Positions 3,592-33,129 of a stretch of 64,000 nt of DNA are shown one piece after another. The position numbers and the translations under genes are program-made. Source of the stretch: Flavobacterium soli DSM 19725 (GTDB taxonomy: Bacteria; Bacteroidota; Bacteroidia; Flavobacteriales; Flavobacteriaceae); assembly GCF_000422705.1 (NCBI RefSeq), contig NZ_AUGO01000006.1:1-64000 (forward strand). Direction: 5' to 3'. The notes beneath the pieces were generated by a model that did no database searches, had not been told where the DNA came from, and saw only the letters and a list, made by a program, of their open reading frames with translations. Positions within the stretch are counted from its first letter, which is position 1, and each line of letters begins with the position of its first letter.

Positions 3592-3651
3592 GGGTTTGGA
3601 TGGCCCCACATGGGGGTGTGGGGCAACGGGGCGCCGCTTCGGCGCCAAAGG

Positions 3652-3678
3652 AAAGGCTACCCTTCGGGGTGGCCTTTT
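3652..3678. terminator. Bidirectional terminator between lipoprotein and RteC-like genes
   Basis: AAAGGCTACCC-TTCG-GGGTGGCCTTTT is a long stem with a TTCG tetraloop and T or A runs at either edge, so it can end transcription from both convergent genes. The minus-strand stop codon (3677-3679) overlaps its edge. Confidence 0.7.
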
Positions 3679-4498
3679 AGGTTGCATCTGCCTCCTCCAT
3701 CCGACGCAGCAGGTGCTCCTGCAGGGCCATCAGGAACTTCGTCCGGTCGGTCTTGCGGTTGCAGATCTCATGGAACGTCCGGTGGAACTGCCCGACCTCC
3801 ACCCCGAATGCCCTGCCAAGGAACGCCACGATTTCGCCGATGTCGGTCGCACCGTGCCGGAACACCCCTTCGGTGTGCAGGGCATAGGCCAGCTCGATAA
3901 GCCCCACCTTCGGTCCCGTCCACTGCAGCTGCGGCACCACATGGGAGGCCTGCGCCTTTCCTTCCAGCTTGCCGGCAAGGTAGTCCTGCAGCCGGGCATA
4001 GGCCGCAAACTGTGCCACCTTGTAGTCATGGGAGGTCGCAAAGAGCGGATCCAGCTGGAAATGGAAGCTTTCGCCATCCGCCGTGCACTCCTGCCGCCGC
4101 AGGAAGAACCGCCCGTCAAGGTAGGTGTCGCCCCTGCGGCAGTAGCGGTGGAACGCCGCATGCCGCTCAAAGAACCGCTCCTTCTTGCGCAGGGCCTGGC
4201 GGTAGTAGTGGCGCACGGTCTTCTCGGATCCCAGCGGCCGGTGGTCCTCCAGCCGGTACAGTTCCTGGAAATAGAGCAGGCGGCCGCTCAGCAGCGGCTT
4301 GCCGTGCCGGAAGAATTCGATCTCCTCTGCCTGGCTGGGCTCTTGCTTCAGGAAGGCGGTCCGGAGCTGGCCAAGGGCGTCAAGGCAAAGGCGGATCGCC
4401 TGCTCGCAGTGGCGGGGCAGGTCCTCCTCCGGTGAGGGGACAAGTGCCGCAAGCTGCCGCTCAAGCTGTTCCGCAAGGGCTATGCTATAGTCTTTCAT
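3677..4498 (-). CDS. RteC-domain protein
   Basis: The 273-residue soluble protein matches what I know of the RteC family by its overall pattern: a helical N-terminus, the QELYRLEDHRPLGSEK-like region and the C-terminal block FHRTFHEICNRKTDRTKFL with basic residues. RteC was first described as the regulator of tetracycline-induced excision of Bacteroides conjugative transposons. Chromosomal homologues are widespread in Bacteroidota and most are unstudied. I chose the ATG at 4498 (MKDYSIALAEQ) over one ten codons upstream because the upstream residues are low in complexity. No conjugation genes are visible here, so a mobile-element role is only inferred. Confidence 0.75.
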   Translation of the reverse strand: MKDYSIALAEQLERQLAALVPSPEEDLPRHCEQAIRLCLDALGQLRTAFLKQEPSQAEEIEFFRHGKPLLSGRLLYFQELYRLEDHRPLGSEKTVRHYYRQALRKKERFFERHAAFHRYCRRGDTYLDGRFFLRRQECTADGESFHFQLDPLFATSHDYKVAQFAAYARLQDYLAGKLEGKAQASHVVPQLQWTGPKVGLIELAYALHTEGVFRHGATDIGEIVAFLGRAFGVEVGQFHRTFHEICNRKTDRTKFLMALQEHLLRRMEEADAT

Positions 4499-4878
4499 AC
4501 GCGTCGGGGATACGGTTGGTGAAGGCAAAGCTAGGGCATGGGGGCATGTGGGGCAAGTCCGGCTGTGCTGGATTTCGGAATTGTATACTGTTGTAAAAAA
4601 AATGTATAGTAATTTTCATCCCAAAGGAAAACGCACTTTATTTTTTTCAACAAGGCCGGATGCCTTGCCATTGTAGGGTTTTTTAGGCTTTGGATTTCCT
4701 CTTGCCACGGTGTTTGGCAGGAAGGACTGTATAGTTTTTTTCAGGGCATCCGGAGGCCAGCTGGAGTGATGGATTCTGGAATCCAGCACCCAAGTGGTGG
4801 CAAGGGTGATCCGCATTTGATAGGTTTGTGATGGCTTTCTGAAGCTTTTGCAAGCCATAACCTCTAAGATTGAAACGT
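4499..4878. other. Divergent promoter region between RteC-like and PAS-AraC genes
   Basis: About 380 bp without a credible gene. An A+T-rich stretch at about 4575-4650 stands out from the G+C-rich surroundings and probably holds the divergent promoters. No repeat or RNA gene is evident. Confidence 0.4.
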
Positions 4879-5772
4879 ATGGAACAGCCCAGTCACATTT
4901 CCAAGATAAGGATACTCTACAGCCTGCTGTTCGAGCTGCTGGCAGGCCGCAGCCCGGTCTTTCCCCAAGCGGGAGAGGCGGCAGGCCCCTATGATGGGCT
5001 GCTGGCTTCCTTCTCCGGCCTCGCCCGGCAGCTGCAGGAACTCCTCCGGGAGCAGCGACTGCTCCCGCCACTCTACCAGCCGCAGCCGGTCGCCCCCTTC
5101 GTGCTGGTGCTCGATGCCGCCGGCAGGATCACGCTGTGCACCCCCGTCGTCGGACGGCGTCTGGGCTACCCGAAAGCAGAACTGGTCGGCCGTGTGTTTG
5201 CGGAGCTGCTCGTGGACACCTCACCTCGGCAATGGTCGGATATCCTTGCCGGTGCGGGACAGGAGGAGCAGCGGCTCCTGCCCGTGGAGCTGCTGATGCG
5301 GACGGCGTCCGACCTCAGGCTGCCGCTGTCCTGCTGGATCGTGCCGGATCTGGGAGGGGAGCAATATTTTGTAGTGGCCGTTGGGCTCACCCTTCACCTG
5401 GGACCGCCGCTCAGGGGAGGATCCGATGCCCAGGCGAGCCCGCAGGAGGCCGCCGTCAACCTGGCACGGGACCTGCACGGCTATATCATCCGGCACCTCG
5501 ACACCCCGCTGCCCCCCGCAAGGGAACTGGCCCGGCGGTTCGGGACCGACGAGTTCTGCCTCAGGAAGGCCTTCCGCCAATCCTACGGGATGAGCCCCTA
5601 CCAGTGCTACCAGGAGGCAAGGCTCGACAAGGCATTGCAGCTCATCAGGGACACCGGGCTCTCGCTCCAGGAGGTCGCCTTCAGCTGCGGATTCGACCTC
5701 TACGGCAATTTTTACAGGGCCTTCCGGAAAAGGTACGGGTGTCCGCCCAGCAGTGTCAGCAGGGAGGGATGA
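4879..5772 (+). CDS. PAS-domain AraC-family transcriptional regulator
   Basis: The 297-residue cytoplasmic protein has a helical N-terminal region (1-65), a PAS-like sensor fold at about 75-170 (LVLDAAGRITLCTPVVGRRLGY, the usual PAS opening) and a C-terminal AraC/XylS DNA-binding domain at about 195-295. That domain shows LARRFGTDEFCLRKAFRQ and LQEVAFSCGFDLYGNFYRAFRKRYG. I chose the ATG at 4879; a TTG three codons upstream (4870) is also in frame. RteC-like and PAS-AraC genes lie back to back, a pairing that suggests a shared regulatory unit, but the ligand and targets are unknown. A hairpin terminator follows at 5921-5948. Confidence 0.85.
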   Translation: MEQPSHISKIRILYSLLFELLAGRSPVFPQAGEAAGPYDGLLASFSGLARQLQELLREQRLLPPLYQPQPVAPFVLVLDAAGRITLCTPVVGRRLGYPKAELVGRVFAELLVDTSPRQWSDILAGAGQEEQRLLPVELLMRTASDLRLPLSCWIVPDLGGEQYFVVAVGLTLHLGPPLRGGSDAQASPQEAAVNLARDLHGYIIRHLDTPLPPARELARRFGTDEFCLRKAFRQSYGMSPYQCYQEARLDKALQLIRDTGLSLQEVAFSCGFDLYGNFYRAFRKRYGCPPSSVSREG

Positions 5773-6296
5773 TGCAGTTTTTGAATCGCTTGTGGCAGGA
5801 AGTTGTCTGCCGGCCGACGATTCGGGATGGATTACGGGGGAGAAGATCACCGTGACGGGTGGGCTTTACGGGTTGTAAGGAACTATCTTGCATCAGATTT
5901 TGAATGCCCGAAAGGGAAGAAAGCCAGATCGGAAGATTTGGCTTTTTTGGTTTTGGATTGGTGGGGTTACGGCAAAAGCTGAAGCTTCGGAAGTAGGAGG
6001 GTGTGGGCTTGTCATTTTTTGGGCGGTCGGTAGCCAAATGGGCTCTCGTAAAGGTGTTAAAGATGCATTCTTATAATTTACTAAACCTTTTAATTGCAGC
6101 CTCAAAATTATGTTTTGGATGTTCTTCAAAGTCCATCGGGAATTTTAATAATTTTAATCATCTATTTGTAAATATTTTCAATCATAAAAAATGTATATTT
6201 GTTAGTTTAATTCATAAAACATTTGGTTAGTGTAGTATCCAACATATTTTTCTTTTATTATCTAACTGTACTTTATCTTAAATCACAATATTGAAA
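5773..6296. other. Left junction of the A+T-rich defence island
   Basis: Composition falls from G+C-rich to strongly A+T-rich at about 6.06 kb within this gap. A terminator lies at 5921-5948. The segment 6060-6290 probably carries the promoter of the restriction endonuclease. No integrase, tRNA or clear direct repeat marks the edge. Confidence 0.5.
5921..5948 (+). terminator. Rho-independent terminator after the PAS-AraC gene
   Basis: AAGCCAGAT paired with ATTTGGCTT, followed by a T run. It is 150 bp past the stop codon at 5772. Confidence 0.6.
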
Positions 6297-7058
6297 ATGA
6301 ATAAATTAAACCTTGCAGATGTTACTTCCTACGTAGAGCAAAATATAAAGGATTTTCATGATAAGCGATTGGCTAAAGTGAATAGTTTGCGACTTTCAGA
6401 CGTTTTGAAAGCTAAAAATCCTTATCTGTTTAAAGCCAAAAATGTTAATACTGCTAATGAGATTATTGAAGGGATTTTATCTGCATTCTTATCATCAAGC
6501 GAGGAGGGGATTTTTGGAAATTGGTTAGAACGTCTTGCTGTATTCATAAATAATTCTGTATACGGTGGTCAGAAAGCAGTCGTTGATGGAATTGATTTAG
6601 ATTTTATAAAAGATAGTAAGCGTTATCTCGTTGCGATCAAATCCGGACCTAATTGGGGTAATGACAGTCAATATAAGAAGATGGTTGATCATTTTAACAC
6701 TGCGAAGAAAAGGGCAGCAACTTCAGGAGGTAAAGAAGAGATAATTTTTGTAAACGGATGCTGTTATGGTCGTTCGAACGCTAAGAGTGAGTTTAAGAAG
6801 CTGGGATACTATAAGATGTGTGGGCAGAGATTTTGGGAGCTGATATCCAATGAACCTAATTTGTATACAGACATAATTGAGCCTCTCGGTTATAAAGCCG
6901 CAGAGCGTAACCTTGAATTTAAGGAATCTTATGAGAAGGTACAGAATCGAATGGAAAGGGAGTTTCTCATTGATTTTGTTAACGAGGATGGATCCATTAA
7001 CTGGGAAAAGCTGCTTAAGTTCAATTCCTACGTCGAACCAGTAAAACAAAAATCGTAG
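6297..7058 (+). CDS. Type II restriction endonuclease, EcoO109I-like
   Basis: The 253-residue protein resembles the EcoO109I-type restriction endonuclease family. It has a helical N-terminus, the segment NTANEIIEGILSAFL-SSSEEGIFGNWLE and a PD-(D/E)xK-like core at VDGIDLDF (97-103) and AIKSGPNWGN (113-122). The lysine (115) and upstream aspartates (97, 100, 102) are present. The usual acidic residue two before the lysine is Ala113, so metal binding may use another residue. EcoO109I cuts RGGNCCY; the specificity here is not deducible. I took the ATG at 6297 rather than an upstream TTG at 6291. Its stop abuts that of the convergent methyltransferase, which marks a restriction-modification pair. 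Confidence 0.8.
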   Translation: MNKLNLADVTSYVEQNIKDFHDKRLAKVNSLRLSDVLKAKNPYLFKAKNVNTANEIIEGILSAFLSSSEEGIFGNWLERLAVFINNSVYGGQKAVVDGIDLDFIKDSKRYLVAIKSGPNWGNDSQYKKMVDHFNTAKKRAATSGGKEEIIFVNGCCYGRSNAKSEFKKLGYYKMCGQRFWELISNEPNLYTDIIEPLGYKAAERNLEFKESYEKVQNRMEREFLIDFVNEDGSINWEKLLKFNSYVEPVKQKS

Positions 7059-8474
7059 TTAGTCTACCTTACTTTCTGCCTTCTCAACCTGTTTCTGAAA
7101 TTCTTTCAACCAATCTAGATTTGAAGTATTATTGTATCTCGAATATTTGAAATCCCTAATAGGTTCAACAGGCTCATTTCGTAGTGCATCATATATTAAT
7201 TTGCCAACTGCATTTCCTAGGCTTACCGGAACAGCATTTCCAATTTGTCTATAGCGCTCTAAAATTGAGCCTTCAATGCACCAGGTGTCTGGGAATTCTT
7301 GTATTCGCTTGTATTCTTGTACCGATAACGGCCTGTCATGCAATGGATGAGCGAGATCAGTTGCTGGCATGGCAGGATGTGTAACGACAGTCGGTGCTGG
7401 TCGATCCCAAGAAATTCTCCTGAAAAAGCCTGTTTTCCCTCCTCCAAGGAAATAAGACTTCCCCAATGCTTCCTTCTGCTGTTCGATAGGTAGGTTTTTC
7501 CAATTTTGCCCTGCCTTTAAAAGACGATAAAACTTTAATCTCTTTTCAGGAAATTTGATGAAATCGCATGCTTCTTCCAAATTAGTAGTTGCCTGCTTGA
7601 AAGTTTTCCATTTTTTTAAACCGAACTCTCCGTTTTCACTGTGGGTAGGGTTTAAGAAAGGAAGTGGAGTTCCGTCAAGCGTTCCGACAATTATTACCCT
7701 CTCGCGAATTTGAGGGGAACCAAAGTTTGCAGAATTATATAGATTAAAACTTAATGAATATCCGGCTAGTTCAAGCCGTTTCATGATGTAATAAAGAGCA
7801 GAACCAGGAGTATCTTTTAGCTTCTGACTAAAAGATTCAGAAATCTCGTCGTTGGATTCTAATGAGAATTTTGTAGACAGTATTCCGCGAACATTTTCAA
7901 GCACAATGAAGCGGGGCCTTAGTTCCTCAATTATGCTCAGGTATTTTAAGAAAACATTGCCCCGTTCATCTTCAAACCCTTTTCTATTGCCAGCAGTACT
8001 AAATGCTTGGCAGGGAGGGCCACCGGCTATAAGATCTATGGTGTCATTATCAGTAAGTCCAGCAAAACTTAGAATTTGTTCAGAAGTATAATTTCTGATA
8101 TCACCTATTAAACCAATCTTGGGATTGTTGGCGATAATTGTTTTTCTGCTCGATTTGTCTATTTCACATGCCAGCAATGTTTGAAATCCTGACTTTTCCA
8201 ATCCTAGATCAAGCCCCATAGCTCCTGAAAAGAATGAAAGTACTTTTGGAACATTCGTTTTTATTCTCAAAGTATTTCTTCTATCTAATTCAGTATTCTG
8301 CAGCTGATGGTTACTTTTATCAAATGAATCCACATTCTCTTTTGGAATTACCCAAGTCTTGCCTATTTGCATGCCTGGAAGTTTTCCGTCGCGTAGTAAT
8401 TTTCTAACATATTGTGGGGAAAAATCTATTGCCTCCGCGGCATCTTCAACTGAATAAAAATTTTCTTGGCTCAT
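7059..8474 (-). CDS. DNA cytosine-5 methyltransferase with N-terminal HTH
   Basis: The 471-residue protein starts with an excisionase/MerR-like helix-turn-helix (about 6-50: YSVEDAAEAIDFSPQYVRKLL ending in KTWVIP). The C5-methyltransferase domain follows from about 75, with motif I (FFSGAMGLDLGL), motif IV GGPPCQAFS with catalytic Cys155, motif VI LENVRG (Glu193), motif VIII QIRERV and motif X QIGNAVPVSLG. It methylates cytosine at C5, presumably protecting the site cut by the neighbouring endonuclease. The fused HTH may let it repress its own or the nuclease promoter, replacing a separate C protein; this is inference. Genes are tail to tail with zero spacing (stops at 7056-7058 and 7059-7061). 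Confidence 0.93.
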   Translation of the reverse strand: MSQENFYSVEDAAEAIDFSPQYVRKLLRDGKLPGMQIGKTWVIPKENVDSFDKSNHQLQNTELDRRNTLRIKTNVPKVLSFFSGAMGLDLGLEKSGFQTLLACEIDKSSRKTIIANNPKIGLIGDIRNYTSEQILSFAGLTDNDTIDLIAGGPPCQAFSTAGNRKGFEDERGNVFLKYLSIIEELRPRFIVLENVRGILSTKFSLESNDEISESFSQKLKDTPGSALYYIMKRLELAGYSLSFNLYNSANFGSPQIRERVIIVGTLDGTPLPFLNPTHSENGEFGLKKWKTFKQATTNLEEACDFIKFPEKRLKFYRLLKAGQNWKNLPIEQQKEALGKSYFLGGGKTGFFRRISWDRPAPTVVTHPAMPATDLAHPLHDRPLSVQEYKRIQEFPDTWCIEGSILERYRQIGNAVPVSLGNAVGKLIYDALRNEPVEPIRDFKYSRYNNTSNLDWLKEFQKQVEKAESKVD

Positions 8475-8975: not shown

Positions 8976-9860
8976 TTAAATGTATAACGTTCCAAGATAA
9001 GTTCCAATTGAATCATCCTTTATCTTTTCATCCTGTAAAAAGTTTACTGTATAACTAGTACTTGACACAAAGAAATGTACTTTACCTTCGCGTAAATCCA
9101 TGGTTATATCTCTCGCAGAATTTTGAGTAATCGTGTTATAACCACTATAGTAATTAAGATCGTCACTCGAAGCTTCACCGATGATAATAACTTTCGGTTT
9201 AATTTGCTCCAAGAATTTTTTTGGTACTTTTCCTGAGTCCCTACCATGATGAGGTGCAATAAGTATATCAGAGGCAGGCATAACAATATCATCTATTATT
9301 AAATCCATGAATGGTTTTTCTAGATCACCCATCCAAATTACGGAAGCACTATGTTTTAATTCATAACGAAATATAGGTGAAATATTATTGGGGCTAATTC
9401 CATTTTCGGCATCTACTAAAGCCTTTATAAAATGCCTATTAGTAGTAACGGGCCATAAAATATTAATTCCCGATGATCCCCGTACTTCATCACTTTCATT
9501 CATCCATTTTCTAGATACACCCCGACTAATTATAAATGATTTAGATGAGTCCCTTAATTCACGGTATTTTTTAAAATCTTCATTATCCAAATTTTTCAAA
9601 GCATTATTCTTTACAACATAAAAATTTTGAATACCCATCTTCTCATCAAGTTCCTTAAGACCTCTTATATGATCATAGTCGGGAGATGTTGATATAAATC
9701 TTGTAATGTTCTTTCCTTTTGATTCTTTTATAAGCTCATTAATAATTACAATCTTGTCATCTGCCCTCAAATTGCAGTCAATAATCGTAAAATTATCAGA
9801 ATCATGTTTAATGTAAAACATATCACCATGTCCTACAGATATTGATTTAACTATGCTCAT
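8976..9860 (-). CDS. MBL-fold protein 2 of the E2-E1-JAB operon, degenerate metal site
   Basis: The 294-residue protein has the ComEC-like metallo-beta-lactamase layout: an opening strand VGHGDMFYI (9-17), the strand IIDCN (26-30), the loop TSPDYDHIRG (58-67), WMGDLE (Asp179) and APHHG (His204, His205). The canonical HxHxDH reads SPDYDH, so the first two histidines are missing while Asp63 and His64 remain. It may hold one metal or be a binding rather than catalytic domain. It looks like a diverged paralogue of the 389-residue MBL protein in the same operon, sharing the GDM...DCN opening. The ATG at 9858-9860 overlaps the patatin stop by 14 nt, so translation is probably coupled. It is the last gene of the operon. 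Confidence 0.8.
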   Translation of the reverse strand: MSIVKSISVGHGDMFYIKHDSDNFTIIDCNLRADDKIVIINELIKESKGKNITRFISTSPDYDHIRGLKELDEKMGIQNFYVVKNNALKNLDNEDFKKYRELRDSSKSFIISRGVSRKWMNESDEVRGSSGINILWPVTTNRHFIKALVDAENGISPNNISPIFRYELKHSASVIWMGDLEKPFMDLIIDDIVMPASDILIAPHHGRDSGKVPKKFLEQIKPKVIIIGEASSDDLNYYSGYNTITQNSARDITMDLREGKVHFFVSSTSYTVNFLQDEKIKDDSIGTYLGTLYI

Positions 9861-11166
9861 TGGATTTATTTAAAGTTGTACAATATAATTTTATTTGTAA
9901 ATCAGTCAGTATTTCACCATGTTTTGAAAGCAACGCAATTTTCTCTTTTGTCAAAGCAGTTAAGTTTGTTCCTATACGACTAATTTTTTCGATTTGTTGT
10001 TCATTGAGAGCATTTTCGACTATGCTATCAAAATTTATTTTTTTACGAATAAATTCATTTATTTCTGCAAATGGCTTTTCAAGAACTTCTTCTGTAAGTC
10101 CGTGGTGAACTAAAACATGCTCGGGCACTTGATCTTTTTTAGCTGCAGCAACAAACTCTACGACACATCTTGAATATTCCCAATCTAACGAGAAGTAAGC
10201 GATTTCTTTTGACTTTCCGTAGACATCCCTAATAAATTGTAAATTTTTAATTTTGCGCATCATCACATCAATACCACGATAGAGTATAAAAGGCGTATTG
10301 TTTGCAAAGAACTTGTTACTAAATGGTTGAGAACCATCACTCACAATAATGACATCACAAGCATATGAAGAGTTCCTTTGAGTTAACTTATGTAAGCCCT
10401 GATTATCATATAATCCTCCATCTATTAATCTTGGTTTAATCCTTTTAAAGTCGTTAGCATTTTTGAAATAGCTGATTGGAATTTTAACTGGGTCAAATGG
10501 TACGGGTACACTAGAACTACTTGCGACTGCTACAGCAATTGAAAAATCATTACCATTGAATTTAATTGAATCACCACCATCCTTTGGAAATTCATAACTT
10601 GAATCAGACATCTTGTTTTTGGAAAAAGTCCAAAGCGTCCCTGTGGATAAATTGGTTGAATTAATTGCTAAAATAGGGTGATCTGGAAGGTCGGCCAATT
10701 TCTTGTTGCCAAAGAATATTTTACGATAAGCCTTTATTTTTAATGCAGTAAATGAAACAATCCGAAATTGTATTAATACTGGTGAAAGAACAATGGCACA
10801 GATGATTGAGACAACTAGCCATGTTGGAAAGTTAATACTAAAAGGATCATTAAGTAAAAAATAGGCTATTGCTGCAAATATAAATATGGGCAGTAAAAAC
10901 CGATAGCTAAATATAATGCGTCGAATACAGCTTTTTTGTAGATTAGCAGTAAATGATTTTTCAAATTCTTCAAAATTATCTTTATTCAGAACATAGTAAG
11001 CACCTGCAATAGAACCACCAGAAATACATGATATAACATCAATTTTTTCAAGAATATTCAATTTGTTCAATTTACGGAAAACGCCTAAATGAAATGCTGC
11101 AGCCCTATAGCCTCCACCTGACAATGCCAATCCTAACTTAGCTTTTTTTTCTTCTTTATTATTCAT
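9847..11166 (-). CDS. Membrane patatin-like phospholipase
   Basis: The 439-residue protein has the patatin oxyanion loop SGGGYR (residues 16-21), the nucleophile motif GGSIAG (Ser52) and the catalytic aspartate in IDGGLYDN (Asp249), so the Ser-Asp dyad is intact. Between them is an insertion with two hydrophobic helices (about 88-106 and 114-138), predicting anchorage in the inner membrane. Patatin-like enzymes hydrolyse acyl esters of phospholipids; in CBASS (CapV) this is the membrane-destroying effector. The same role is inferred here from its place directly downstream of the E2-E1-JAB gene. ATG 11166 overlaps the upstream stop by 8 nt; a TTG two codons earlier is less likely. Confidence 0.88.
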   Translation of the reverse strand: MNNKEEKKAKLGLALSGGGYRAAAFHLGVFRKLNKLNILEKIDVISCISGGSIAGAYYVLNKDNFEEFEKSFTANLQKSCIRRIIFSYRFLLPIFIFAAIAYFLLNDPFSINFPTWLVVSIICAIVLSPVLIQFRIVSFTALKIKAYRKIFFGNKKLADLPDHPILAINSTNLSTGTLWTFSKNKMSDSSYEFPKDGGDSIKFNGNDFSIAVAVASSSSVPVPFDPVKIPISYFKNANDFKRIKPRLIDGGLYDNQGLHKLTQRNSSYACDVIIVSDGSQPFSNKFFANNTPFILYRGIDVMMRKIKNLQFIRDVYGKSKEIAYFSLDWEYSRCVVEFVAAAKKDQVPEHVLVHHGLTEEVLEKPFAEINEFIRKKINFDSIVENALNEQQIEKISRIGTNLTALTKEKIALLSKHGEILTDLQIKLYCTTLNKSNEHS

Positions 11167-13423
11167 GTACAAAAGGTATTACTTTGTCTGGCGTTACTAT
11201 TACCGCGCAAGTAGGGATAGGTGTTTTTTTATTAATAACCTGAAGTTGTGCAATAGTTTTCATATCCTGACCGCTTAAACTTTCAAGATTCATAGGATGT
11301 GTATGCCATTCGCCAATGTAACCTATGATTTCCCCTGTGTTATATTTAACATCGTTTACATATTCAGGTAGTCCAGTAATTCCCCTCGTAAAGGCAACAG
11401 GAGTACCGGAGCTGCCTTTGGGCTCTGTAACTATTTCAAAAACATATATTACTTTGGTTTTGTAATTGGCAACGCCTATTAGAATACCACCAGTTTCTCT
11501 TTTACCAAATTTTTTGCATTGGTTTAAAAGTTGTTCTGTAATGCCGGGAAATAGCCTAAGTGTCCATTTACTGCCTGCTTGACAAGTCAAAATCTCGAAT
11601 GCATCTATCGCATAATATCTGTTTGAAATTTGAGGAATTCCTGCTGACCTTCTAAAAATATTTAGATATAATAATCCAGAGTCACCTGCCAGTTTTTCTT
11701 TGTCAGCTGACAATATTTGAGAAAAGGCGGCTGCATGAAAACTTATCAAGTCGTCGGGCATTACAGTTGTGATTGAATTACATCCTAATCCTATATTCAA
11801 AACGGTTGGCTCTTTTTCTGCATCATTTCTACGCCAGATATGTAAGTCACTATCTGTATTAGCCAAATAACAAGCTGTATATACTAGATCGTCAATTCTT
11901 GGATTTCGTTGTTTGCCCTCTTTATATAATAGGCCTATCTGCCCATCATCGACCAGTTCACAACGATTATATTCTAAATCAGGAGAAATGTTCCTTAAAG
12001 CAAAATGTTGCATTACCTGTTGACTGGCAGTTGTATCTACAATTGTATCGTACTTTTTAAGCTCATCATCCTGTATGTCTGAAATATTTTGTTCGTATGC
12101 AATTAAACCGGAAGTAATGTCCAGCTCGTAAAATTCTTTAACTTCTTCTATTATTGCTGTGGCTTTGTTTTGACCAATTGAGTTTGAAAATAATATGTGA
12201 CGAGCTAAATTATGTTGTTCGAAATTATCGTCATCAATTGCACCGATATTTGTTTTTCCAATTCTTGCATCGTGCATAAGTATTTTGGAACCCAGTGAGC
12301 CAACACCTACAAATAATGATTTTTGTTGCCTTTCCTCATTACTAAGAATATTTGCAAGAGCAGAAGTATGAGGTTCAGTATGTGATGTAATATAAACCTC
12401 TGTTTCGTCTGACAAAGCTGTAAGACCTCCTTCAGGAAGCATAAGTGTGTAAGTGAAAAACTCGTAATTACCAGTATAACCTATTAATTTTTTTGGACGT
12501 AGTACAGCATGTATAATTGGAATTATACGAGAAAAAATTACATCTGCTTGCTGAACGCTAGCTATCATAGAAACAATATCAATATTTCTTAAATTCAAAA
12601 AAAATTTTAACTCTCCAAAATTGGTCGGTAAGTTAGTATTATACTCGCTTTCAACAGACCCATCAGAATTCCAAACAAGAAGTGAAAACAGTGACATAAC
12701 TTTAGCAGAATCGTTTGCGCTGAAAATAAATCGTAAAGCTTTTTGAACTGTTTTTTTTATATCGTTTAAACCTAAAAGAGGTATTCCAGCTATTGATTTA
12801 TAGGTATAACTTCTTTTTTCATTTAGTTTATAAAGACAACTCAAGATTAGAGCCATTGGAAACTTTGGCACTAGTCTTTCATCATTTTTTACAATTTGCT
12901 CAAACATATCATATTTATATATGTGTTTGCCTCCAGACTTTTTTTCTAATCGTACAGGATCAAATTCATTGTTATCTTCCAAAAGTGTACCTGTACCCGC
13001 TTTAAAAAACCATTGCGAACCAACCAATAAAAAATCGGCAATTGTAATTGTAGCAAACCATTGGTTTAGACTATCCCTAACCAGACATAAAACAGCTGGT
13101 TCGGTGTCTGGAGTATAGTATAAATGTGGTAATCGCCTTTTGGGAAAATCTTTTCTATCAGAAAGTACCGCAGGTGATTCTTCGGGATATCTTGATAAGG
13201 AGATCCGAATGAGAACAGGCTCTTCTTGTTGGATTAGATTATCTTTAGAACCACGACTTGGTAATGAAACAGAATATGAAGCCTTGACAACAATGTATCC
13301 TGGACGCCAAGAGAATACTTTAAGATTGTCGCACCGAAAATATCTCTTGATTTCTAAGATTGCATCATTTACCTCTGAAGATAGACTACCTTCATAGGCA
13401 CTTAAATCATCACTATGCAGCAT
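11159..13423 (-). CDS. E2-E1-JAB fusion: ubiquitin-like conjugation and deconjugation enzyme
   Basis: The 754-residue protein joins three activities. Residues about 20-150 form an E2-like domain with candidate catalytic Cys113 (AVLCLVRDSLNQW). A helical linker follows to about 365. Residues about 366-600 are a ThiF/E1 adenylation domain: VGVGSLGSK nucleotide loop (373-378), the acidic stretch IDDDNFEQHNLAR with Arg408, Lys420 and candidate Cys548 (GLGCNS). Residues about 625-750 are a JAB/JAMM metalloprotease with Glu643, His707, His709, Ser717 and Asp720 (EWHTHP...SGQD), all present. CBASS Cap2 is E2-E1 and Cap3 is a separate JAB; here one chain could attach and remove a target tail. Its start overlaps the upstream MBL stop by 1 nt (TAATG). 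Confidence 0.9.
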   Translation of the reverse strand: MLHSDDLSAYEGSLSSEVNDAILEIKRYFRCDNLKVFSWRPGYIVVKASYSVSLPSRGSKDNLIQQEEPVLIRISLSRYPEESPAVLSDRKDFPKRRLPHLYYTPDTEPAVLCLVRDSLNQWFATITIADFLLVGSQWFFKAGTGTLLEDNNEFDPVRLEKKSGGKHIYKYDMFEQIVKNDERLVPKFPMALILSCLYKLNEKRSYTYKSIAGIPLLGLNDIKKTVQKALRFIFSANDSAKVMSLFSLLVWNSDGSVESEYNTNLPTNFGELKFFLNLRNIDIVSMIASVQQADVIFSRIIPIIHAVLRPKKLIGYTGNYEFFTYTLMLPEGGLTALSDETEVYITSHTEPHTSALANILSNEERQQKSLFVGVGSLGSKILMHDARIGKTNIGAIDDDNFEQHNLARHILFSNSIGQNKATAIIEEVKEFYELDITSGLIAYEQNISDIQDDELKKYDTIVDTTASQQVMQHFALRNISPDLEYNRCELVDDGQIGLLYKEGKQRNPRIDDLVYTACYLANTDSDLHIWRRNDAEKEPTVLNIGLGCNSITTVMPDDLISFHAAAFSQILSADKEKLAGDSGLLYLNIFRRSAGIPQISNRYYAIDAFEILTCQAGSKWTLRLFPGITEQLLNQCKKFGKRETGGILIGVANYKTKVIYVFEIVTEPKGSSGTPVAFTRGITGLPEYVNDVKYNTGEIIGYIGEWHTHPMNLESLSGQDMKTIAQLQVINKKTPIPTCAVIVTPDKVIPFVHE

Positions 13424-14592
13424 TATCCCTGAGAAATTATTGTTCCAGCTGCACCGCTACCACCCGCAGATGTTGCTGCACCGCTTATGCTTTTATTTGA
13501 TGCTCTTGCCGGGCCGTTTGATGTAATATCGAAAATGATCGGTTTCGGCTCTTCTTCACTGGGTTCAATATCAGTGTTTAAGAACTTTTCCTTTGAATCA
13601 ACATATTTTAAGTATTCTTTCTTAGCGTCATAATGTGGCGGATTGTCATCATCATTAACAATTTTTTTGCAGGAAGCTATAATAAAACTGCCGTCTTTCC
13701 CATACTCCAATGCTTCTAAAGATGAGTCAACAATGTCGTCTTTATCTGTATCGTTGAAATATGTCCAGGAGCAATGATGAGGAGCCATAAATAAATCCCA
13801 ATCGAGCGCCCTCTCGCTTTCATCTTTTCCAAATCGTTTTGTTCGCTCAAGTATCTGTTTCCATGTTGTATGATCAGAATCACCACCAAAAATTGCCTGA
13901 CACGAAAAATCTCTACTCCAGCTGTATTCTTTAAATCGTACCTGAAACACAATACTTGCGGAATTTTTATCTTTTTCAGGTGACTCTAAATGAATCTTGA
14001 AGGGAGCATGGATAAAAATAGAGAAGGTATTCTGGTCACGATCATTAAATCTTGAAACTACGTCGCCTGGCTTAGAACGTAAGTGATCTAAGTCCTCATA
14101 TTCGCCATTAATATCATATCCTATAATTCGAATACGGTTTCCCGGTAAATCTTTATCTGCACTCTCGTCACGGTGGAGTTTCAAACGTCTTTCGGCTTCC
14201 TGTTGATGCGCGTCTTCATTTGGGTTTGTAAATTGTTCTGCAATCATTGGGGAAAACCACATTGCATCAATAATAATAAGACCGGCTTCCTTATCTTCTT
14301 TTTTATATTTTTTTGGGTCGCCTTGATAAAAATTGTCTTTAAAACCTAAGCAATGATCTTTATCACCGTGAGTGAGTATAAATACATCCAAATAAGGATT
14401 ATTATCACGAGTTTGAATAGAATCCAAAAGGTCTTTTTTTGCATCATAACGTGATTTATTTGCTTCATCCTGAGATACCACTGTTATGTTACAATCTATT
14501 AAAATTGTAGTTTTATCTGCTAAAGTTATTAGCGACATATCGCCATTTTTTACAGGATAGTACTTGATTTGAGGATTGTTAGCTACTGGCAT
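13423..14592 (-). CDS. MBL-fold protein 1 with flexible Gly-ending tail
   Basis: The 389-residue first gene of the operon is a ComEC-like metallo-beta-lactamase fold. It opens with VKNGDMSLITL (14-24) and IDCN (32-35), then the metal motif THGDKDH (74-80; His75, Asp77, Asp79, His80), FGGDSDH (235-241) and APHHC (270-274; His272, His273). The metal site is better preserved than in its operon paralogue. From about residue 356 the chain becomes a Ser/Ala/Gly-rich disordered tail ending in IISQG. A free C-terminal glycine on a flexible tail is what an E1/E2 enzyme needs, so this protein may be the conjugated substrate, as the CD-NTase is in type II CBASS. That role is inference. Substrate of the hydrolase is unknown. 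Confidence 0.85.
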   Translation of the reverse strand: MPVANNPQIKYYPVKNGDMSLITLADKTTILIDCNITVVSQDEANKSRYDAKKDLLDSIQTRDNNPYLDVFILTHGDKDHCLGFKDNFYQGDPKKYKKEDKEAGLIIIDAMWFSPMIAEQFTNPNEDAHQQEAERRLKLHRDESADKDLPGNRIRIIGYDINGEYEDLDHLRSKPGDVVSRFNDRDQNTFSIFIHAPFKIHLESPEKDKNSASIVFQVRFKEYSWSRDFSCQAIFGGDSDHTTWKQILERTKRFGKDESERALDWDLFMAPHHCSWTYFNDTDKDDIVDSSLEALEYGKDGSFIIASCKKIVNDDDNPPHYDAKKEYLKYVDSKEKFLNTDIEPSEEEPKPIIFDITSNGPARASNKSISGAATSAGGSGAAGTIISQG

Positions 14593-15347
14593 TTAGTGTC
14601 TACCCCCATAGTTATTAAACCATTAAAGGCAATTGATATTGTAATTGTAAAGTTTTGCATAATTTGTTTTATTTTAGGGTTAGATTTAATTTTTTTATAT
14701 CTTTTAGGTATTGCTCTTAAATTTTTTATAAATTATTTGTAACATTTATATTAAAAATTAAATCATAAAATATGCCAAGCTATTATGATGTTTATATTGT
14801 CGTAGAAAAATATGATATAAACTGCGAATTTGACAAAAAAAATGACAGACTGTCAGTTGGTTAAAAATATGAAATGAGTTTCCTGAATCATAATATAACA
14901 ATCTAAAACTGTTATATCAAAGAAATGATGCTCATTCATCTTTCTAAATTTCTTCTATCGCTTGTTATCATCTTTAGTAGATGTATTGAAATAATCATAG
15001 TGAATTAAATCATATCTTAGTTTTTCACATTACTTATAAGTTTAAATTTTCTCAAAGTTAGGTTTTGAGAAACGTTCTATTTTACGGTTTTACGTAATTC
15101 AAAAAAAAAATATTTAATAATAACTAAATTAACTATTAAAAGCGAGGTTCATCTACGTATAAATGAGCGTTTTTTAGTTTTTCATTTAAATAAAAAAAGA
15201 TGCCTCAGCATCTTTCATTTATTTGTATTTTTCCTACTATCAATAAAATGTCTATTCTTGAAAAATTCATATACTTTAATAAACCATAAAACAACTATTC
15301 CTATAATTTCATACTACACCATCAAATCTAATTTATCCACTCCATAA
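14593..15347. other. 755-bp A+T-rich gap upstream of the E2-E1-JAB operon
   Basis: No credible protein gene. The 100 bp next to 14592 should hold the operon promoter; I could not find an exact TAnnTTTG box with confidence. A terminator for the XRE gene lies at 15190-15215. Confidence 0.45.
15190..15215 (-). terminator. Terminator downstream of the XRE regulator
   Basis: AAAGATGC-CTCA-GCATCTTT is a perfect stem. Read on the minus strand it is followed by a run of T, fitting termination of the gene ending at 15348. Confidence 0.65.
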
Positions 15348-15773
15348 CTACTTTTTTATTATTGTTCGATACTTAATAATATTTTTTTTATAATCTTCAA
15401 TTTCTTTTTCTGATAAAGGATTTATAGAAATAATTTTGAATCTCTCTACCGGTTCGCCATTTATTTTAGACTGATTTTCAAGAGTTTTTTTGTCAAAAAA
15501 ATCAATCACTATTCTAACTAGATCGTATTCTGTCACTCCATCTGGATAAATTTCTGAGTACGACTTCACGCTGCAAGCATTCGCAATTCTTGACATTAGT
15601 CTGATATTTAGTTTCGTTGGTTGTTTATGATTTTCAATATTACCAATAAACCCTTCAGAAACTCCAATTTTATGTGCAAGAGCTGTTTGAGATAATCCCG
15701 CTTTTAAACGTACTAAACGTAATTTTTCTATTAGTAAAAAGTCTAAATGCGATATAATAATTTCAATAATCAT
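15348..15773 (-). CDS. XRE-family HTH regulator
   Basis: The 141-residue protein carries a Cro/C1-type helix-turn-helix at about 17-72 (EKLRLVRLKAGLSQTALAHKIGVSEGFIGNIEN). A C-terminal region (75-141), rich in Lys, Glu and Ile, has no recognised motif. It is on the same strand as the four-gene operon, 755 bp upstream and behind its own terminator, so it is a separate unit. XRE regulators often guard defence or mobile loci; control of the operon is possible but not shown. The first Met (MIIEIIISHLDFLL) adds a short hydrophobic lead; a downstream start is possible. Confidence 0.8.
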   Translation of the reverse strand: MIIEIIISHLDFLLIEKLRLVRLKAGLSQTALAHKIGVSEGFIGNIENHKQPTKLNIRLMSRIANACSVKSYSEIYPDGVTEYDLVRIVIDFFDKKTLENQSKINGEPVERFKIISINPLSEKEIEDYKKNIIKYRTIIKK

Positions 15774-15930
15774 CTTTTTTCTTTTTTTGTCAATTACTGA
15801 ATTATTAAAATATTCTACACATACTTATAGGTATGTGAAATTAATTTGTTATGTTTGTGGTATTCATTTATGAATATCTTATTTTTGCGATTCTTCATAT
15901 AAAATATTTGAAGCATTCGCTTTGAATCTC

Positions 15931-16035
15931 GCGTTAGAAAACTGGTAATTTTTGCAACGAGATGATAAGTAGGAGGCTCACGTCCTTTGGCGTGGGCTCA
16001 CTTATTGTTGCTCGGTATACCAGTGCCTCTAACGC
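15931..16035. repeat. Large nested imperfect palindrome at the right edge of the island
   Basis: The outer arms are GCGTTAGAaaACTGGTA (15931-15947) and TACCAGTgccTCTAACGC (16018-16035). Inside them GCAAC (15954-15958) pairs with GTTGC (16007-16011), ATAAGT pairs with ACTTAT, and GCTCACG lies opposite CGTGGGC around a short loop at 15983-15990. Together they form one long bulged stem of about 105 nt. It may be a structured RNA, a REP- or MITE-like element, or a recombination site. No transposase or reverse transcriptase is adjacent. Confidence 0.65.
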
Positions 16036-16346
16036 AATAAGCTGAGTTCCACGCTTTTTTTATTCCTTCAGTTAAGGGCGTTCAGTTTTTTTCAAGGCAA
16101 CTTCTTTTTTTTATTCCGCTTCGCAAACGTTTTCGGCTGTCGGTCGTAGGGTATATACGGTAAATTCGGCTGTAAGGTCTAGGTGATGTAGTGGTTTACG
16201 GTTCGGTAGGGCAGTGCCACAGTAGCAACAGTATGAGAGGAGGGCTGCCTGTTCGGCCACCACTTCGCCGCGGCGAACACCCCTCCAAGCGAAGGGAATC
16301 CTCAGATGGCGGTAAAAAAAATAGGAGAAGGAAATGAAAATAATAG

Positions 16347-16407
16347 ATAATGGCCAATAGCAATAAAGGATAAGAAATAGGAATAAATAATGACCAATAG
16401 CAATAAA
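16347..16407. repeat. Direct repeat of 21 bp spaced 40 bp
   Basis: ATAATGGCCAATAGCAATAA at 16347 recurs as ATAATGACCAATAGCAATAA at 16387, each embedded in A-rich imperfect copies that include AAGAAATAG. One base differs. It may be slippage-derived low-complexity DNA. Confidence 0.55.
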
Positions 16408-16820
16408 AAATAATAATGAAGAATAAGAAATAGCGATGGCGAAGAGACATCCTGCCCTGAATGAAGTTGAGGTTTTAAGATAGTTGAAGTGGGTTAGTTA
16501 ATCAGGAAGAAGGGGCAGGTTTTTTTAAGGTAGGACATGGGCAAATAAAGCGCAAAGGAACGGCAAGTTTACAGTAGCTCTAAGGTAGGTCTAAGGTAGG
16601 TTTTCAGGTAGGCCATACCGTAGATACTGTATGGATACAGCGTGGCTAAAGCGTGGTCACAGCGTTACATAAGTATCGGCATGATACCGCTACTCGCTTC
16701 CAGGGACATCACAGCCAGATGAGTACCCAAAGGCACCTCAAGTACAAGTGCAAATAAAAAATAAACAATAGTAATGATAAATAACGAACGCCAATCAGTA
16801 AGTAAAACGTCCAGCAATAA

Positions 16821-16881
16821 CCCAAAACCCAAAACCCAAAACCCAAAACCCAAAACCCTTAACCCATAACCCAGAACCCAT
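16821..16881. repeat. CCCAAAA telomere-like array
   Basis: Six CCC tracts spaced exactly 7 nt (CCCAAAA units, 16821-16858) pass into degenerate ACCCATA/ACCCAGA units up to about 16881. The minus strand reads GGGTTTT repeats, able in principle to form G-quadruplexes. A related array occurs at 27639-27699. Confidence 0.8.
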
Positions 16882-17044
16882 AAAAAAAGAGCCTATGTAG
16901 TAAACAGTACAAAACCTTAGAGTCGCAATCCCGAGACTTCGGGAGAGAGGCAAGACAAAAAAATGGCCCTCTAACTCTTCTTGGCGGTTGAATAGAGGAC
17001 CGGAGCTAACAAAACACGAATGTTTCATTTAACGGATCAAAATT

Positions 17045-20000
17045 ATGAAAAACAATCTACTGTTCCTATCCTGTATGGGAATAAGTCTGTGTGGCTTCCC
17101 TGCAGCAGCAGGAGAACGTACACACGGCAGGGCAGGGCTGGAGTGCCCCAAAGGGCTCACCGCGCTTCTGGACACCTTTCCCCTGCAAACAATAACCATC
17201 ACCGGAACCGTCCGCGATGCGGCAGGGCCCCTGCCCGGCGTCACCGTAAGGGTAAAGGGCAACAGGACCGTAACCCTCACCGATAGCGAGGGAAGATACG
17301 CCATCATGGCAGAAACGGGCGATGTACTGCTGTTCAGCTACGTCGGCTACAGGGAATACGAAGTGACCGTAACAACGGCCAATATAATCGATGCCATATT
17401 GCAGGAGGATGCAACCTCCCTGCAGGAAGTCACCGTCAATGCGGGCTACTACAGGGTAACGGACAGGGAACGTACGGGAAGCATCGCAAAGATTACGAGC
17501 AAGGAAATCGGGACACAGCCGGTCACCAACGTCCTAGCTACCATGCAGGGACGCATGGCAGGGGTAAACATCACCCAGACAACGGGCGTGCCGGGTGGCA
17601 GCTTTGACATCCAGATCCGCGGACTCAACAGCGTCAGGACGGGAGGCAACAGCCCCCTCTATATCGTCGATGGCGTACCGTATGCCGCCGATGCGATCGG
17701 GACGGGCATCAACTCGGCCGTCCTGCCCTATGCACCCAGCCCCCTGAACAGCCTCAACCCCGAACAGGTGGAAAGCATAGAGGTACTCAAGGATGCCGAC
17801 GCCACCGCCATATACGGATCACGGGGGGCAAATGGGGTGGTTCTGATTACCACCAAGAAGGGGAAGGCAGGTGCTACGAGGTATAATGTGGACGTCTCGA
17901 CAGGGATGGGAAGCATCACCCGCAGGATCGACCTGCTCGATACCGCACAGTACCTCGCCATGAGGGAAGAGGCCTTCCGAAACGATGGCATCGGGGAGTT
18001 TCCCGCACAGGCCTATGATGTGAACGGCACCTGGGACCGCAACCGCAACACCGACTGGCAGCGGGAACTGCTCGGGCAGACCGCCCATATTACGAACGCA
18101 CAGCTGTCGATGTCGGGCGGGACCGCACAGACACAGTTTCTCGTGGGGGGCAGTTTCAACCGGCAGGGTACCGTCTATGACGGCGACTTTGCCTACAGGA
18201 AAAGTAACCTCCACCTGCAGTTGGGGCATGCCTCGGCCGACCAGCGGTTCAAGGCAAGCTTCTCGGCAGGTTATACGTTGCAGGACAACAACCAGCCACG
18301 GGTGGACCTGATGGTCGAGGCCCTGAGGCTGGCGCCAAATGCTCCCGACCTGTATGATGCCGACGGGGAACTGAACTGGGAAGGCAGCACTTGGGAAAAT
18401 CCCCTGCGCCACTATGAGGGGCAGTACGGGGCGACGACAAGGGACCTTATGGCCAATTCCACGCTTAGTTACCTGCTGCTGCCCGGTCTCGAACTGCGTT
18501 CTGGCTTCGGATACACCACGCTTCGCAACGCGGAACGCACCGCCGCACCTTCGACAATGTTCGACCCCGCCTTTGGCGTGACCAGTGCGGCGTCTTCCCT
18601 GATCGTGAGTGCTGCCGACCGCAGCTCGTGGATCGCGGAACCGCAACTGCATTGGAAGGGACGGCTCGGCAAGGCAAGGCTGGAACTGCTGGTAGGAGCC
18701 ACCTTCCAGTCCCAAGGCGGGAGCCAGCTGGCCCAATATGCCGAAGGCTTTTCCAGCAACAGCCTGATCCGGAATATAGGGGCGGCATCCAACCTGTTTA
18801 CGGTGACGAGTGACAACACCGAATACCGCTACCAGGCCTTCTTCGGCCGTGCCAACCTGATTTGGGACGACAGGTACATCCTGAACCTCACGGGAAGGCG
18901 TGACGGCTCAAGCCGCTTCGGCCCCGGCAAGCAGTTTGCCAACTTTGGTGCCGCAGGCGTGGCGTGGCTTTTCTCAAGGGAAGCACTGCTGAAGGACAGT
19001 AACGTGCTGAGCCACGGCAAGCTGAGGGGCAGCTATGGCGTGACGGGCAGTGACCAGATCGGCGACTACCAGTACCTCGATACCTACGCCCCAAGCGGGG
19101 TGCTATATGGGGGCGTCATGGGATTGCGTCCGACCCGCCTGTTCAATCCCGACTTCGGATGGGAAACCAATCGCAAGATGGAGGCCGCACTCGAACTGGG
19201 ATTCCTCAGGGACCGCATCATGCTGACAGCCGGATGGTACCGCAACACCTCGGGCAACCAGCTCGCGGGGATACCGCTGCCGGGCACCACGGGATTCAAC
19301 ATCATTCAGGCCAATCTGGAAGCCACGGTGCAGAACAGGGGCCTCGAGCTGACCCTGCAGGCGGTGAACATGCAGGGCAGGGATTTCAAGTGGACCAGCA
19401 GCCTCAATTTTACGCAGGAACGCAACAAGCTGGTGGAGTTTCCGGGACTCGAGACTTCAACCTACCGCAATACCTACGCCATAGGCCAGCCGCTGAACAT
19501 CCGAAAGATGTACCATTTTACGGGCGTCGATCCGGAAACGGGACTCTACACCTTCGAGGATGTAAACGGCGATGGCCGACTCACCGCGGCGGAAGACAAG
19601 AAACAGGTGGTGGATTTCACGCCTGCTTATTATGGCGGCCTCCACAACGACCTCCGGTACGGCAACTGGCAACTCGGCTTCCTGTTCCAGTTCGTACGGC
19701 AGCAGAATTTCAATTCGGCCGTCAACTTTGGGGCGCCGGGAACATCCAACCAGCCCGTCACGGCACTCGACCGCTGGCAGGAGCCGGGCGACGTGAGCGA
19801 CCACCAGCGGTTTACTTCGGGCAGCAACGGTGCGGCCATGTCGGCCTACAACCGTTACCGTGACAGTGATGCCGCTGTAAGCGATGCCTCCTACGTCCGG
19901 CTAAGGAACCTTTCCATTTCCTATACCTTGCCCGCAACCGCCCTTAAAGGGGTGCAGTGCAGGATGTTTGTGGAAGGGCAGAACCTGCTGACGTTTACGA

Positions 20001-32724: not shown

Positions 32725-32733
32725 CCTAGCCTG

Positions 32734-33129
32734 TGGAGTCGGGGAGAGTCGAACTCCCGTCCAAACAAGCAACTAAAAAACTTTCTACACGCTTATTTCC
32801 TGATTAGATTTTCGTCATTTGGCTTGGCCAGAAACAGCCACCAAACACTTATCTTCTTAGTTGTCAAAACAGTCACGAAGCTTAACTGTTTCTAGGTTTA
32901 TTTTTACGGTTCCCCTTTTAAGAACGCCACAAACCAAGGCTTTCAAGGAGAATCTAGCTTTCCTACCTTGTAGGAACTAGGCAAATCGTACTATAATTCG
33001 GATTAAGCAGCTAAAGCGTAATTATTTTCGCCGTGTAAAAGTGTTGAGACCTTTTATTTACGAGAATTGTCCCAGTTCTCGACGTGCTTACTTTTCAATT
33101 CGACTTGCTGTCAAAACCAGTCGACCCCC
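32734..33129 (-). ncRNA. ssrA: Transfer-messenger RNA
   Basis: On the minus strand the 5' end GGGGGTCGACTGGTTTTGAC and the 3' end with GTTCGACTCTCCCC and terminal CCA form the tRNA-like half. The internal frame at 33003-33032 encodes GENNYALAA followed by TAA, the proteolysis tag (an alanine precedes it from the charged tmRNA). Length of about 396 nt is normal. It rescues ribosomes stalled on broken messages. The 3' end of ssrA is a common integration site for islands, and a recombinase-like remnant lies beside it. The tag type points to a flavobacterial host. Confidence 0.97.

Follow-up and report, generated by a model that had tools for sequence, protein, structure and literature searches.

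The window analysed here is a stretch of 64,000 nt at the start of contig NZ_AUGO01000006.1 of Flavobacterium soli DSM 19725. On its minus strand lies an operon of four open reading frames (ORFs) of 389, 754, 439-441 and 294 aa, which encode a metallo-beta-lactamase (MBL) fold protein (MBL-A), a fusion of E2, E1 and JAB domains, a patatin-like phospholipase and a second MBL-fold protein (MBL-B). The original prediction for this DNA had described four overlapping minus-strand genes, and this layout was confirmed at the same coordinates. MBL-A and the fusion overlap by 1 nt (position 13423) and the patatin and MBL-B genes by 14 nt (9847-9860), while the fusion and the patatin overlap by 8 nt if translation starts at the ATG at 11166 (439 aa), or by 14 nt if it starts at the TTG at 11172 given by the ORF listing. 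The features are listed below; CD-NTase stands for cGAS/DncV-like nucleotidyltransferase and CBASS for cyclic oligonucleotide-based antiphage signalling system.

13423..14592, minus strand: MBL-A, a ComEC-like MBL-fold protein of 389 aa; first gene of the operon, in the slot of the CD-NTase in type II CBASS
13426..13494, minus strand: coding stretch for the disordered tail at the C-terminus of MBL-A (residues 367-389), with Gly389 as predicted conjugation site
11159..13423, minus strand: E2-E1-JAB fusion of 754 aa, Cap2 and Cap3 as a single chain (NCBIfam and fold matches)
12911..13234, minus strand: E2 domain, fusion residues 64-171, with Cys113 (PF14457)
12026..12331, minus strand: E1/ThiF adenylation domain, fusion residues 365-466 (PF00899)
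11780-11782, minus strand: codon of E1 Cys548, beyond the PF00899 domain (alignment)
11243..11536, minus strand: JAB domain, fusion residues 630-727, with JAMM residues E643, H707, H709, S717 and D720 (PF14464, PADLOC JAB)
9847..11166, minus strand: patatin-like phospholipase, the predicted effector (PF01734; ATG at 11166)
8976..9860, minus strand: MBL-B, a second ComEC-like MBL protein of PDC-M48B type, 294 aa (PADLOC PDLC04673)

The E2 (PF14457, 51 bits) and E1/ThiF (PF00899, 53.9 bits) domains of the fusion score above their Pfam gathering scores, and Prok-JAB (PF14464) falls just under its own (23.9 against 25 bits), with 80.7 bits for the JAB model of PADLOC. The catalytic residues are intact and identical in all 24 aligned fusions: Cys113 of the E2 domain; Gly373, Gly375, Gly378, Asp397 and Cys548 of the E1 domain; and Glu643, His707, His709, Ser717 and Asp720 of the JAB domain. 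This rules out that the JAB or E1 part has decayed. The structure model of the fusion has a predicted local distance difference test score (pLDDT) of 82.4 and a predicted template modelling score (pTM) of 0.62, so that the packing of its domains is uncertain, and the stretch 538-551, which includes Cys548, lies below a pLDDT of 50. The structural check suggested along with the original prediction returned Cap2-CdnD complexes as the best PDB matches of this model (7to3, E 2.7e-24).

MBL-A gave a model of pLDDT 88.6 and pTM 0.88, whose best PDB match is the MBL domain of ComEC (9ic4, E 5.5e-12), with TM-scores of 0.74 for the target length and 0.53 for the query length. Its metal-site residues H75, D79, H80, D238, H272 and H273 are identical in all 48 aligned MBL-A sequences, and D77 in 46 of the 48. 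Both MBL proteins of the operon score below the Pfam MBL gathering scores (13.9 of 22.7 and 14.3 of 27 bits) and were placed by NCBIfam, PADLOC and fold.

The core formed by MBL-A and the fusion is not new. MBL-A passes the NCBIfam model NF058524 ‘6A-MBL_enzyme’ (390 bits, cut-off 220) and the fusion passes NF058523 ‘6A-MBL_cap2_3’ (534 bits, cut-off 320); in the June 2026 release used, both are equivalog models of an ‘anti-phage 6A-MBL system’. The core is therefore a member of the named, little-described 6A-MBL kind, and its treatment as an unnamed system in the original prediction was mistaken. The accompanying statement that E2-E1-JAB proteins beside MBL proteins had been predicted by comparative genomics was correct: row 6a of Table 1 in Iyer (2006) lists a triple-module E2-E1-JAB protein with a metallo-beta-lactamase gene nearly always adjacent (PMC1779556). 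No experimental paper on 6A-MBL was found in the literature searched, though one behind the NCBIfam name may exist. Phage defence is what we infer for the operon, the term ‘anti-phage’ being at hand only as part of the NCBIfam name.

The surroundings of the core were surveyed in 56 loci, namely the window, 30 public genome contigs, four viral contigs, ten further genomes and 11 plasmids. The public contigs are a sample (45 among the matches listed), of which 15 (L063-L077) were excluded as short, off-target query matches; near-duplicates (L094, L101, L113, L078 and L043) were removed for the non-redundant set. In 44 of the 50 non-redundant MBL-A loci the fusion lies directly downstream on the same strand. 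Among the other six, the fusion is interrupted by transposase-like ORFs in L034 and split in L059, the contig ends in L050, separate E1-E2 and JAB genes are present in L081, and an E2-only protein takes its place in L042 and L047 (PADLOC E2, 183 and 143 bits). MBL-A and the fusion are the constant core. Of the claim that the four genes are one unit, the single overlapping operon stands for this genome; a fixed set of four is ruled out, as effector and MBL-B vary among loci and only the core is constant.

No CD-NTase was found by a Pfam scan of seven proteins (the four of the operon and three neighbours), by a search of the organism's own genome with a single Pfam model (SMODS), or, when six CD-NTases served as phmmer queries, in any of the 56 loci. 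A CD-NTase next to most relatives had been named as the outcome that would count against a unit like type II CBASS built on a different, MBL-type core; the count is 0 of 56, and the gene content together with the MBL-A/fusion neighbourhoods supports that proposal. L037, alone among the 56 loci, has a polymerase-beta-type nucleotidyltransferase two genes further on (13189-14055; PF18765, 30 bits), after a membrane protein and a second MBL; by phmmer it is not a CD-NTase.

What MBL-A may do in the place of a cyclase is suggested by its C-terminus. The last 23 residues (367-389) are predicted to be disordered (pLDDT below 50) and end in GTIISQG. A terminal glycine is present in 65 of the 120 nearest MBL-A relatives (the best 120 of 1611) and in 62 of 120 in a second set with distant members (120 listed of 2824, many of them near-identical). 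After clustering of 295 MBL-A sequences at 60% core identity, 14 of the 33 clusters end in glycine, compared with 4.7% glycine in the cores (binomial 9e-11, an approximate value because the clusters are related). Of the 63 unique tails in the HG clade, which were partly chosen by pattern, 61 retain Pro-4, and behind their glycine come 0, 1, 2 or 6 residues that vary freely (such as AS, SS, TR, K, C, DV and KR). Among the 61 tails of the RAG clade, 40 stop at the glycine and the others carry 1, 3, 4 or 6 further residues, while in the QG clade, to which the window belongs, 68 of 75 stop there and seven carry 1-4 varied extra residues. Several clades thus have a tail that is conserved up to one glycine and free in length and letters beyond it. 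The precursors of ubiquitin and SUMO have this same appearance, a glycine motif with extra residues behind it, and it is on this ground that MBL-A is likely to be the conjugated protein.

Three MBL-A relatives in the second set end in KPAGFA, close to the cyclase tail KPGGFA. One CBASS cyclase is conjugated through its C-terminal glycine, which in E. coli raises the output of cyclic GMP-AMP (cGAMP) (PMC10097602), and that of B. cereus via the alanine of its KPGGFA tail (PMC11153139). A glycine or alanine ending is conserved in cyclases that occur with Cap2 and Cap3 and not in other CBASS architectures (PMC10097602). This published control is mirrored by the MBL-B-type proteins, of which two of 18 end in glycine or alanine.

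The gene that follows the core varies. The patatin in the window scores 60.8 bits with PF01734, above the gathering score, and has Ser52 (ATG numbering) within GGSIAG and two predicted membrane helices by hydropathy count. A reading of it as CapV does not hold, since NF041079 gives 12.7 bits against a cut-off of 200 and PADLOC has no match. In 11 of the 56 loci the gene directly behind the fusion encodes a patatin (window, L033, L049, L094, L095, L096, L097, L098, L099, L100 and L104), which Pfam confirmed for L096 (48 bits) and L097 (49 bits); in L102 a patatin adjoins the fusion on the opposite strand. In 29 of the 56 loci, small membrane proteins of five profile families lie at the core on the same strand, after or before it, 28 of them directly at the core and one (L110) behind a second MBL; they include PDC-M48A (L055, 231 bits). 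The effector slot is swappable, with a patatin here and small membrane proteins elsewhere. A clear succession of core, patatin and MBL is present in the window and in L096 and L097. The neighbourhood survey proposed for recurrence of the MBL and patatin genes thus gave a divided answer: MBL-A with the fusion recurs in most loci (the 44 of 50 above), whereas a patatin directly after it is found in the 11 loci listed and the full order clearly recurs in L096 and L097. In L100 (4970-7114) the patatin of the 6A operon is itself followed by a membrane protein of the T1 family, and in L040 (11468-12088) the third 6A gene resembles Csx27, a type VI-B CRISPR membrane protein (31 bits).

Our reading of the operon as a whole, to which we assign a probability of about 0.6, is that MBL-A stands in the cyclase's place, is attached by the fusion to other proteins via its C-terminal glycine and is thereby primed to switch on the membrane patatin, which would likely kill the phage-infected cell. 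Its first element, the conserved core, is given by the neighbourhoods. The tails make it very probable that MBL-A, and not a ubiquitin-like protein, is what becomes conjugated, with JAB trimming the residues beyond the glycine and removing conjugates. MBL-A would be charged at Gly389, handed over by Cys548 to Cys113 and finally joined to lysines of the targets, and JAB would reverse the attachment. By analogy with the rise in cGAMP from the conjugated CBASS cyclase, conjugation probably raises or localises the activity of MBL-A. A more tentative step, suggested by the fold and the swappable effectors, is that MBL-A could be a hydrolase of the ComEC nuclease type whose products, rather than a cyclic nucleotide, signal to the membrane effector; given the modelled ComEC-like fold, such a product would probably derive from nucleic acid. 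The occurrence of effectors of unrelated fold in one slot favours a shared small signal, with direct contact as the alternative.

MBL-A could instead be the killer itself: as a DNase linked by E2-E1 to proteins of the phage or the host, it would cut phage DNA on the spot, with the patatin as a second, independent killer. The ComEC MBL domain is the best fold match of MBL-A, and Bil conjugates its modifier to phage proteins. ComEC-like MBL proteins also act as DNases in Hachiman and AVAST (PMC12799240). This account is nevertheless unlikely, because effectors of unrelated fold lie at the core in 40 of the 56 loci (patatin in 11, membrane proteins in 29), to which an MBL-A that controls an effector is the better fit, and because the seven proteins scanned include no protease partner such as HamM and Avs1a have.

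It is improbable that the tail merely docks MBL-A on the fusion while a host ThiS/MoaD-like protein serves as modifier. For the modifier, Iyer (2006) guessed at an endogenous ThiS/MoaD or an operon-encoded ubiquitin-like protein (PMC1779556), and no ubiquitin-like gene was found among the seven proteins scanned. Docking, however, predicts neither conservation up to the glycine with free residues beyond it nor a fused JAB, and Cap2 of CBASS uses the C-terminus of its own partner (PMC10097602).

Several observations weigh against a conjugated MBL-A that drives the effector. Among the 120 nearest MBL-A relatives (the best 120 of 1611), 55 lack a terminal glycine, and in some of these the glycine motif is followed by extra residues. 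Of the 120, 39 carry [KQ]P[WHF] close to the C-terminus, two of them in the form QPHRFYG, the neighbourhood having been seen only for L042. The tail could dock on E2-E1 without conjugation. The relatedness of the clusters means that the binomial value overstates certainty, and the motif classes were drawn after the tails had been seen, so that their anchor letters are identical by construction. The substrate of MBL-A is not fixed by a ComEC-like fold with a TM-score of 0.53 by query length. On the effector side, the membrane-protein matches are weak (33-39 bits) in five of the 29 loci. The two loci in which the exact four-gene order clearly recurs (L096 and L097) belong to one family (f52) and have a different MBL-B subfamily, and L097 starts inside the fusion, so that MBL-A is not seen there. 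In L047, the genes that follow MBL-A and the E2-only gene match a patatin weakly, at 13 bits, and an MBL at 24 bits.

The fourth gene encodes MBL-B, which is PDC-M48B according to PADLOC (PDLC04673, 432 bits). Its motif SPDYDH (residues 59-64) has serine for the first metal-ligand histidine, in contrast to HPDxDH in nine of nine other subfamily members examined, and the loss of this ligand may leave it a weak catalyst. According to PADLOC, a second MBL of the PDC-M48B kind is encoded near the core on the same strand in the window, L037, L053, L096, L097, L108, L109 and L110. Likeness to L108 adds L079 (the third gene being classed by sight), and phmmer alone placed one in L047 (24 bits), one in L057 (75 bits) and a fragment in L060 (34 bits). 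Nine further copies of the subfamily lie outside 6A runs: on plasmids L120, L121, L122 and L124, in genomes L125 and L126, as a second copy in L097, on the opposite strand in L080, and in L123. Eight of the nine have a small membrane protein as their closest partner (convergent in L121), and L123 has a JAB fragment. These membrane partners belong to the T1 family in L080, L097, L120 and L121 (49-155 bits) and to T2 in L124 (79 bits), and are PDC-M48A-like in L125 and L126 (114-123 bits), with L122 matching only at E 0.008. Of the 14 plasmid records with an MBL-B relative, five were opened; in viral contigs none was found with a single-sequence query.

As these copies are paired with the membrane families of the 6A slot, MBL and membrane protein form a two-gene unit, and MBL-B belongs to this separate, portable pair (PDC-M48). 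By analogy, the pair resembles type I CBASS and MBL-A with conjugation enzyme and effector resembles type II. If MBL-A is the conjugated protein that primes the patatin, MBL-B might, on a more tentative view, act as a brake or second input that sets the patatin's threshold, and the lost ligand suggests weak or no catalysis; a phosphodiesterase brake was considered. That MBL-B rather than MBL-A controls the patatin, through a chance fusion of an effectorless 6A core with an MBL-B/patatin pair, would agree with the overlap of these two genes here and with the pairing of MBL-B-type proteins with membrane effectors outside 6A operons, but it is highly improbable: no same-strand gene of at least 120 aa lies within 130 nt after the patatin in L033, L049, L094, L095, L098, L100 or L104, the gene after the patatin in L099 encodes a 359-aa protein with predicted membrane helices, and MBL-B has lost a metal ligand.

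A second type of tail accompanies E2-only enzymes. In L042, where the partner is of this kind, MBL-A ends in KKPWCNTDD. A plasmid search with the L042 E2 listed 11 records, of which eight were opened, one of the four Ligilactobacillus records among them. The gene before E2 encodes a CD-NTase in five of these eight plasmids (Pfam DncV-like domain above the cut-off in all five), with the tails VKPWCRS, DPKPWFKQ, PPKPWGDTY, AKPWKNI and TKPWRN. In a Runella plasmid it encodes an MBL protein that ends in AKPWQRG (Pfam Lactamase_B 29.9 bits, no phmmer match to MBL-A), and in a Chryseobacterium plasmid an annotated adenylate/guanylate cyclase that ends in NRPWLKRS and has no Pfam match. A Carnobacterium plasmid with a transposase before E2 was left out of the count (L141, where a transposase gene precedes the E2 gene, is not among the E2-only loci). 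The motif [KR]PW thus occurs among the final 12 residues of the operon's first product in eight of nine E2-only loci, the ninth (L047) ending in GNWCKS, and in none of the 51 MBL-A loci with an E2-E1-JAB match (Fisher 3.5e-9, relatedness ignored). Among 659 ORFs of those loci, the single [KR]PW match is that of L042 itself. Two RAG-clade tails (P0325 and P0341) hold KPW after the glycine; their neighbourhoods were not seen. In E2-CBASS the cyclase is linked to its E2 via a cysteine near the C-terminus, a point not found in the literature searched.

The Runella and Chryseobacterium plasmids each show a further arrangement. In the former (L135, 2899-8633), genes for MBL, E2-only protein, T1 membrane protein and an MBL-B-like protein succeed one another, and behind them a third MBL gene adjoins a long gene for a serine protease. 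In the latter (L137, 2485-4606), an annotated Pycsar effector, an annotated nucleotide cyclase and the E2-only protein form what appears to be a Pycsar-like system with a ubiquitin-type E2.

Proteins other than cyclases and MBL proteins may carry the glycine/alanine type of ending as well. In L116 and L127 an E1-E2 enzyme follows a YegP-like (DUF1508) protein that ends in SRFA, similar to the GRFA ending of the CD-NTase in L115; no JAB gene was seen there, and the L116 locus had no match in plasmids. The L127 locus (1078-6247) comprises the YegP-like protein (ending ESRFA), the E1-E2 enzyme, a gene like trypsin-type proteases and another protein, one more conjugation operon in which the first protein is unrelated.

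As judged from the sequences, both tails are carried by MBL proteins and CD-NTases, the glycine/alanine tail also by the YegP-like protein and the [KR]PW tail also by the Pycsar cyclase. We regard it as an even chance that these tails amount to a code on unrelated immune enzymes, glycine/alanine for E1-E2 with JAB and [KR]PW for E2-only enzymes, and that in 6A a ComEC-like MBL, in several clades made as a precursor for trimming by JAB, is conjugated and drives swappable membrane effectors through a hydrolase signal, with no cyclase. If true, bacterial ubiquitin-like conjugation would belong neither to cyclases nor to ubiquitin-fold proteins, and a short tail would turn any immune enzyme into a modifier. 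The question of why type II CBASS conjugates its cyclase would become testable, with the same machinery serving an enzyme of another fold. Sequence would then predict both the conjugated protein and the enzyme type and would point to a signal between MBL hydrolase and membrane effectors; if the tail code proved valid across all relatives, it would give bacterial conjugation a general rule. In the literature searched we did not find an MBL as conjugated protein, precursor-type tails, partners of the patatin or PDC-M48 type, E2-only or split forms, or [KR]PW across MBL, CD-NTase and Pycsar enzymes.

Set against known systems, the operon agrees with 6A-MBL in that its core genes pass the cut-offs, the gene order and the E2-E1-JAB domain order are the same, and MBL-A and fusion are adjacent with a 1-nt overlap. 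It differs in that row 6a and the two NCBIfam models describe two components, whereas here a patatin and MBL-B follow, and in that relatives show other effectors as well as E2-only and split E1-E2/JAB forms. With type II CBASS it shares the E1, E2 and JAB catalytic residues, a first protein that ends in glycine (IISQG), a phospholipase effector and Cap2-CdnD as the best PDB match of the fusion. In contrast to that system, it has an MBL-fold protein instead of a CD-NTase and its E2, E1 and JAB domains in one chain; the JAB fails the NCBIfam Cap3 model (25.8 bits of 200), as the patatin fails the CapV model. PDC-M48 is a PADLOC candidate consisting of a small membrane protein (A) and an MBL (B). 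Its B component is matched by MBL-B of the window, which, however, follows a patatin behind a 6A core, and there is no PDC-M48A match in the seven proteins. Bil and Bub operons hold E1, E2 and JAB-type enzymes together for defence, as is predicted here, but no gene for a ubiquitin-like beta-grasp protein was found among the seven by Pfam, PADLOC or NCBIfam, small unlisted ORFs being still possible. The gated ComEC-like MBL nucleases (HamM, Avs1a, LmuA partners) likewise have a ComEC-like MBL fold in a defence operon (PMC12799240); here the seven proteins include no trypsin- or caspase-like protease, and a conjugation enzyme is present instead.

MBL-A relatives are carried by 252 of 72,556 plasmid records, half of these from Klebsiella. 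None was found in phage records, and viral contigs gave four MBL-A loci. In the phylum to which the window belongs, two of 296 genomes scanned had Cap2 (PDLC00848), and a second scan of the phylum added no genomes beyond those already found. On five plasmids (L104, L107, L111, L112 and L113) a WYL-domain regulator lies directly upstream of the 6A core and divergent from it.

In the window, one further feature lies upstream of the operon:

15195..15216, minus strand: terminator-like hairpin between a helix-turn-helix (HTH) gene (15348-15773) and the operon (pattern scan, weak)

The hairpin scan found five such structures against 4.1 expected in shuffles, a count no better than chance. If real, this hairpin would imply a separate promoter for the operon within 14593-15194, a weak suggestion, and a promoter scan did no better than shuffles.

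Adjoining the operon, at 6291-8474, are convergent genes for an EcoO109I-like type II endonuclease (PF14511, 268 bits) and a C5 cytosine methylase, the latter with an excisionase-type HTH at its N-terminus. The G+C content is 27-43% at 6-17 kb and 51-63% in the flanks sampled (1-6 kb and 17-26 kb). Because of this low G+C block and the adjoining restriction-modification pair, the 6-17 kb block is likely to be a defence island of foreign origin. Exact repeats of at least 12 bases between its edges (5600-6400 compared with 15700-17050) and tRNA genes in the 64-kb window were sought and none were found. The window also contains one tmRNA gene, at 32733-33128, with the tag GENNYALAA.

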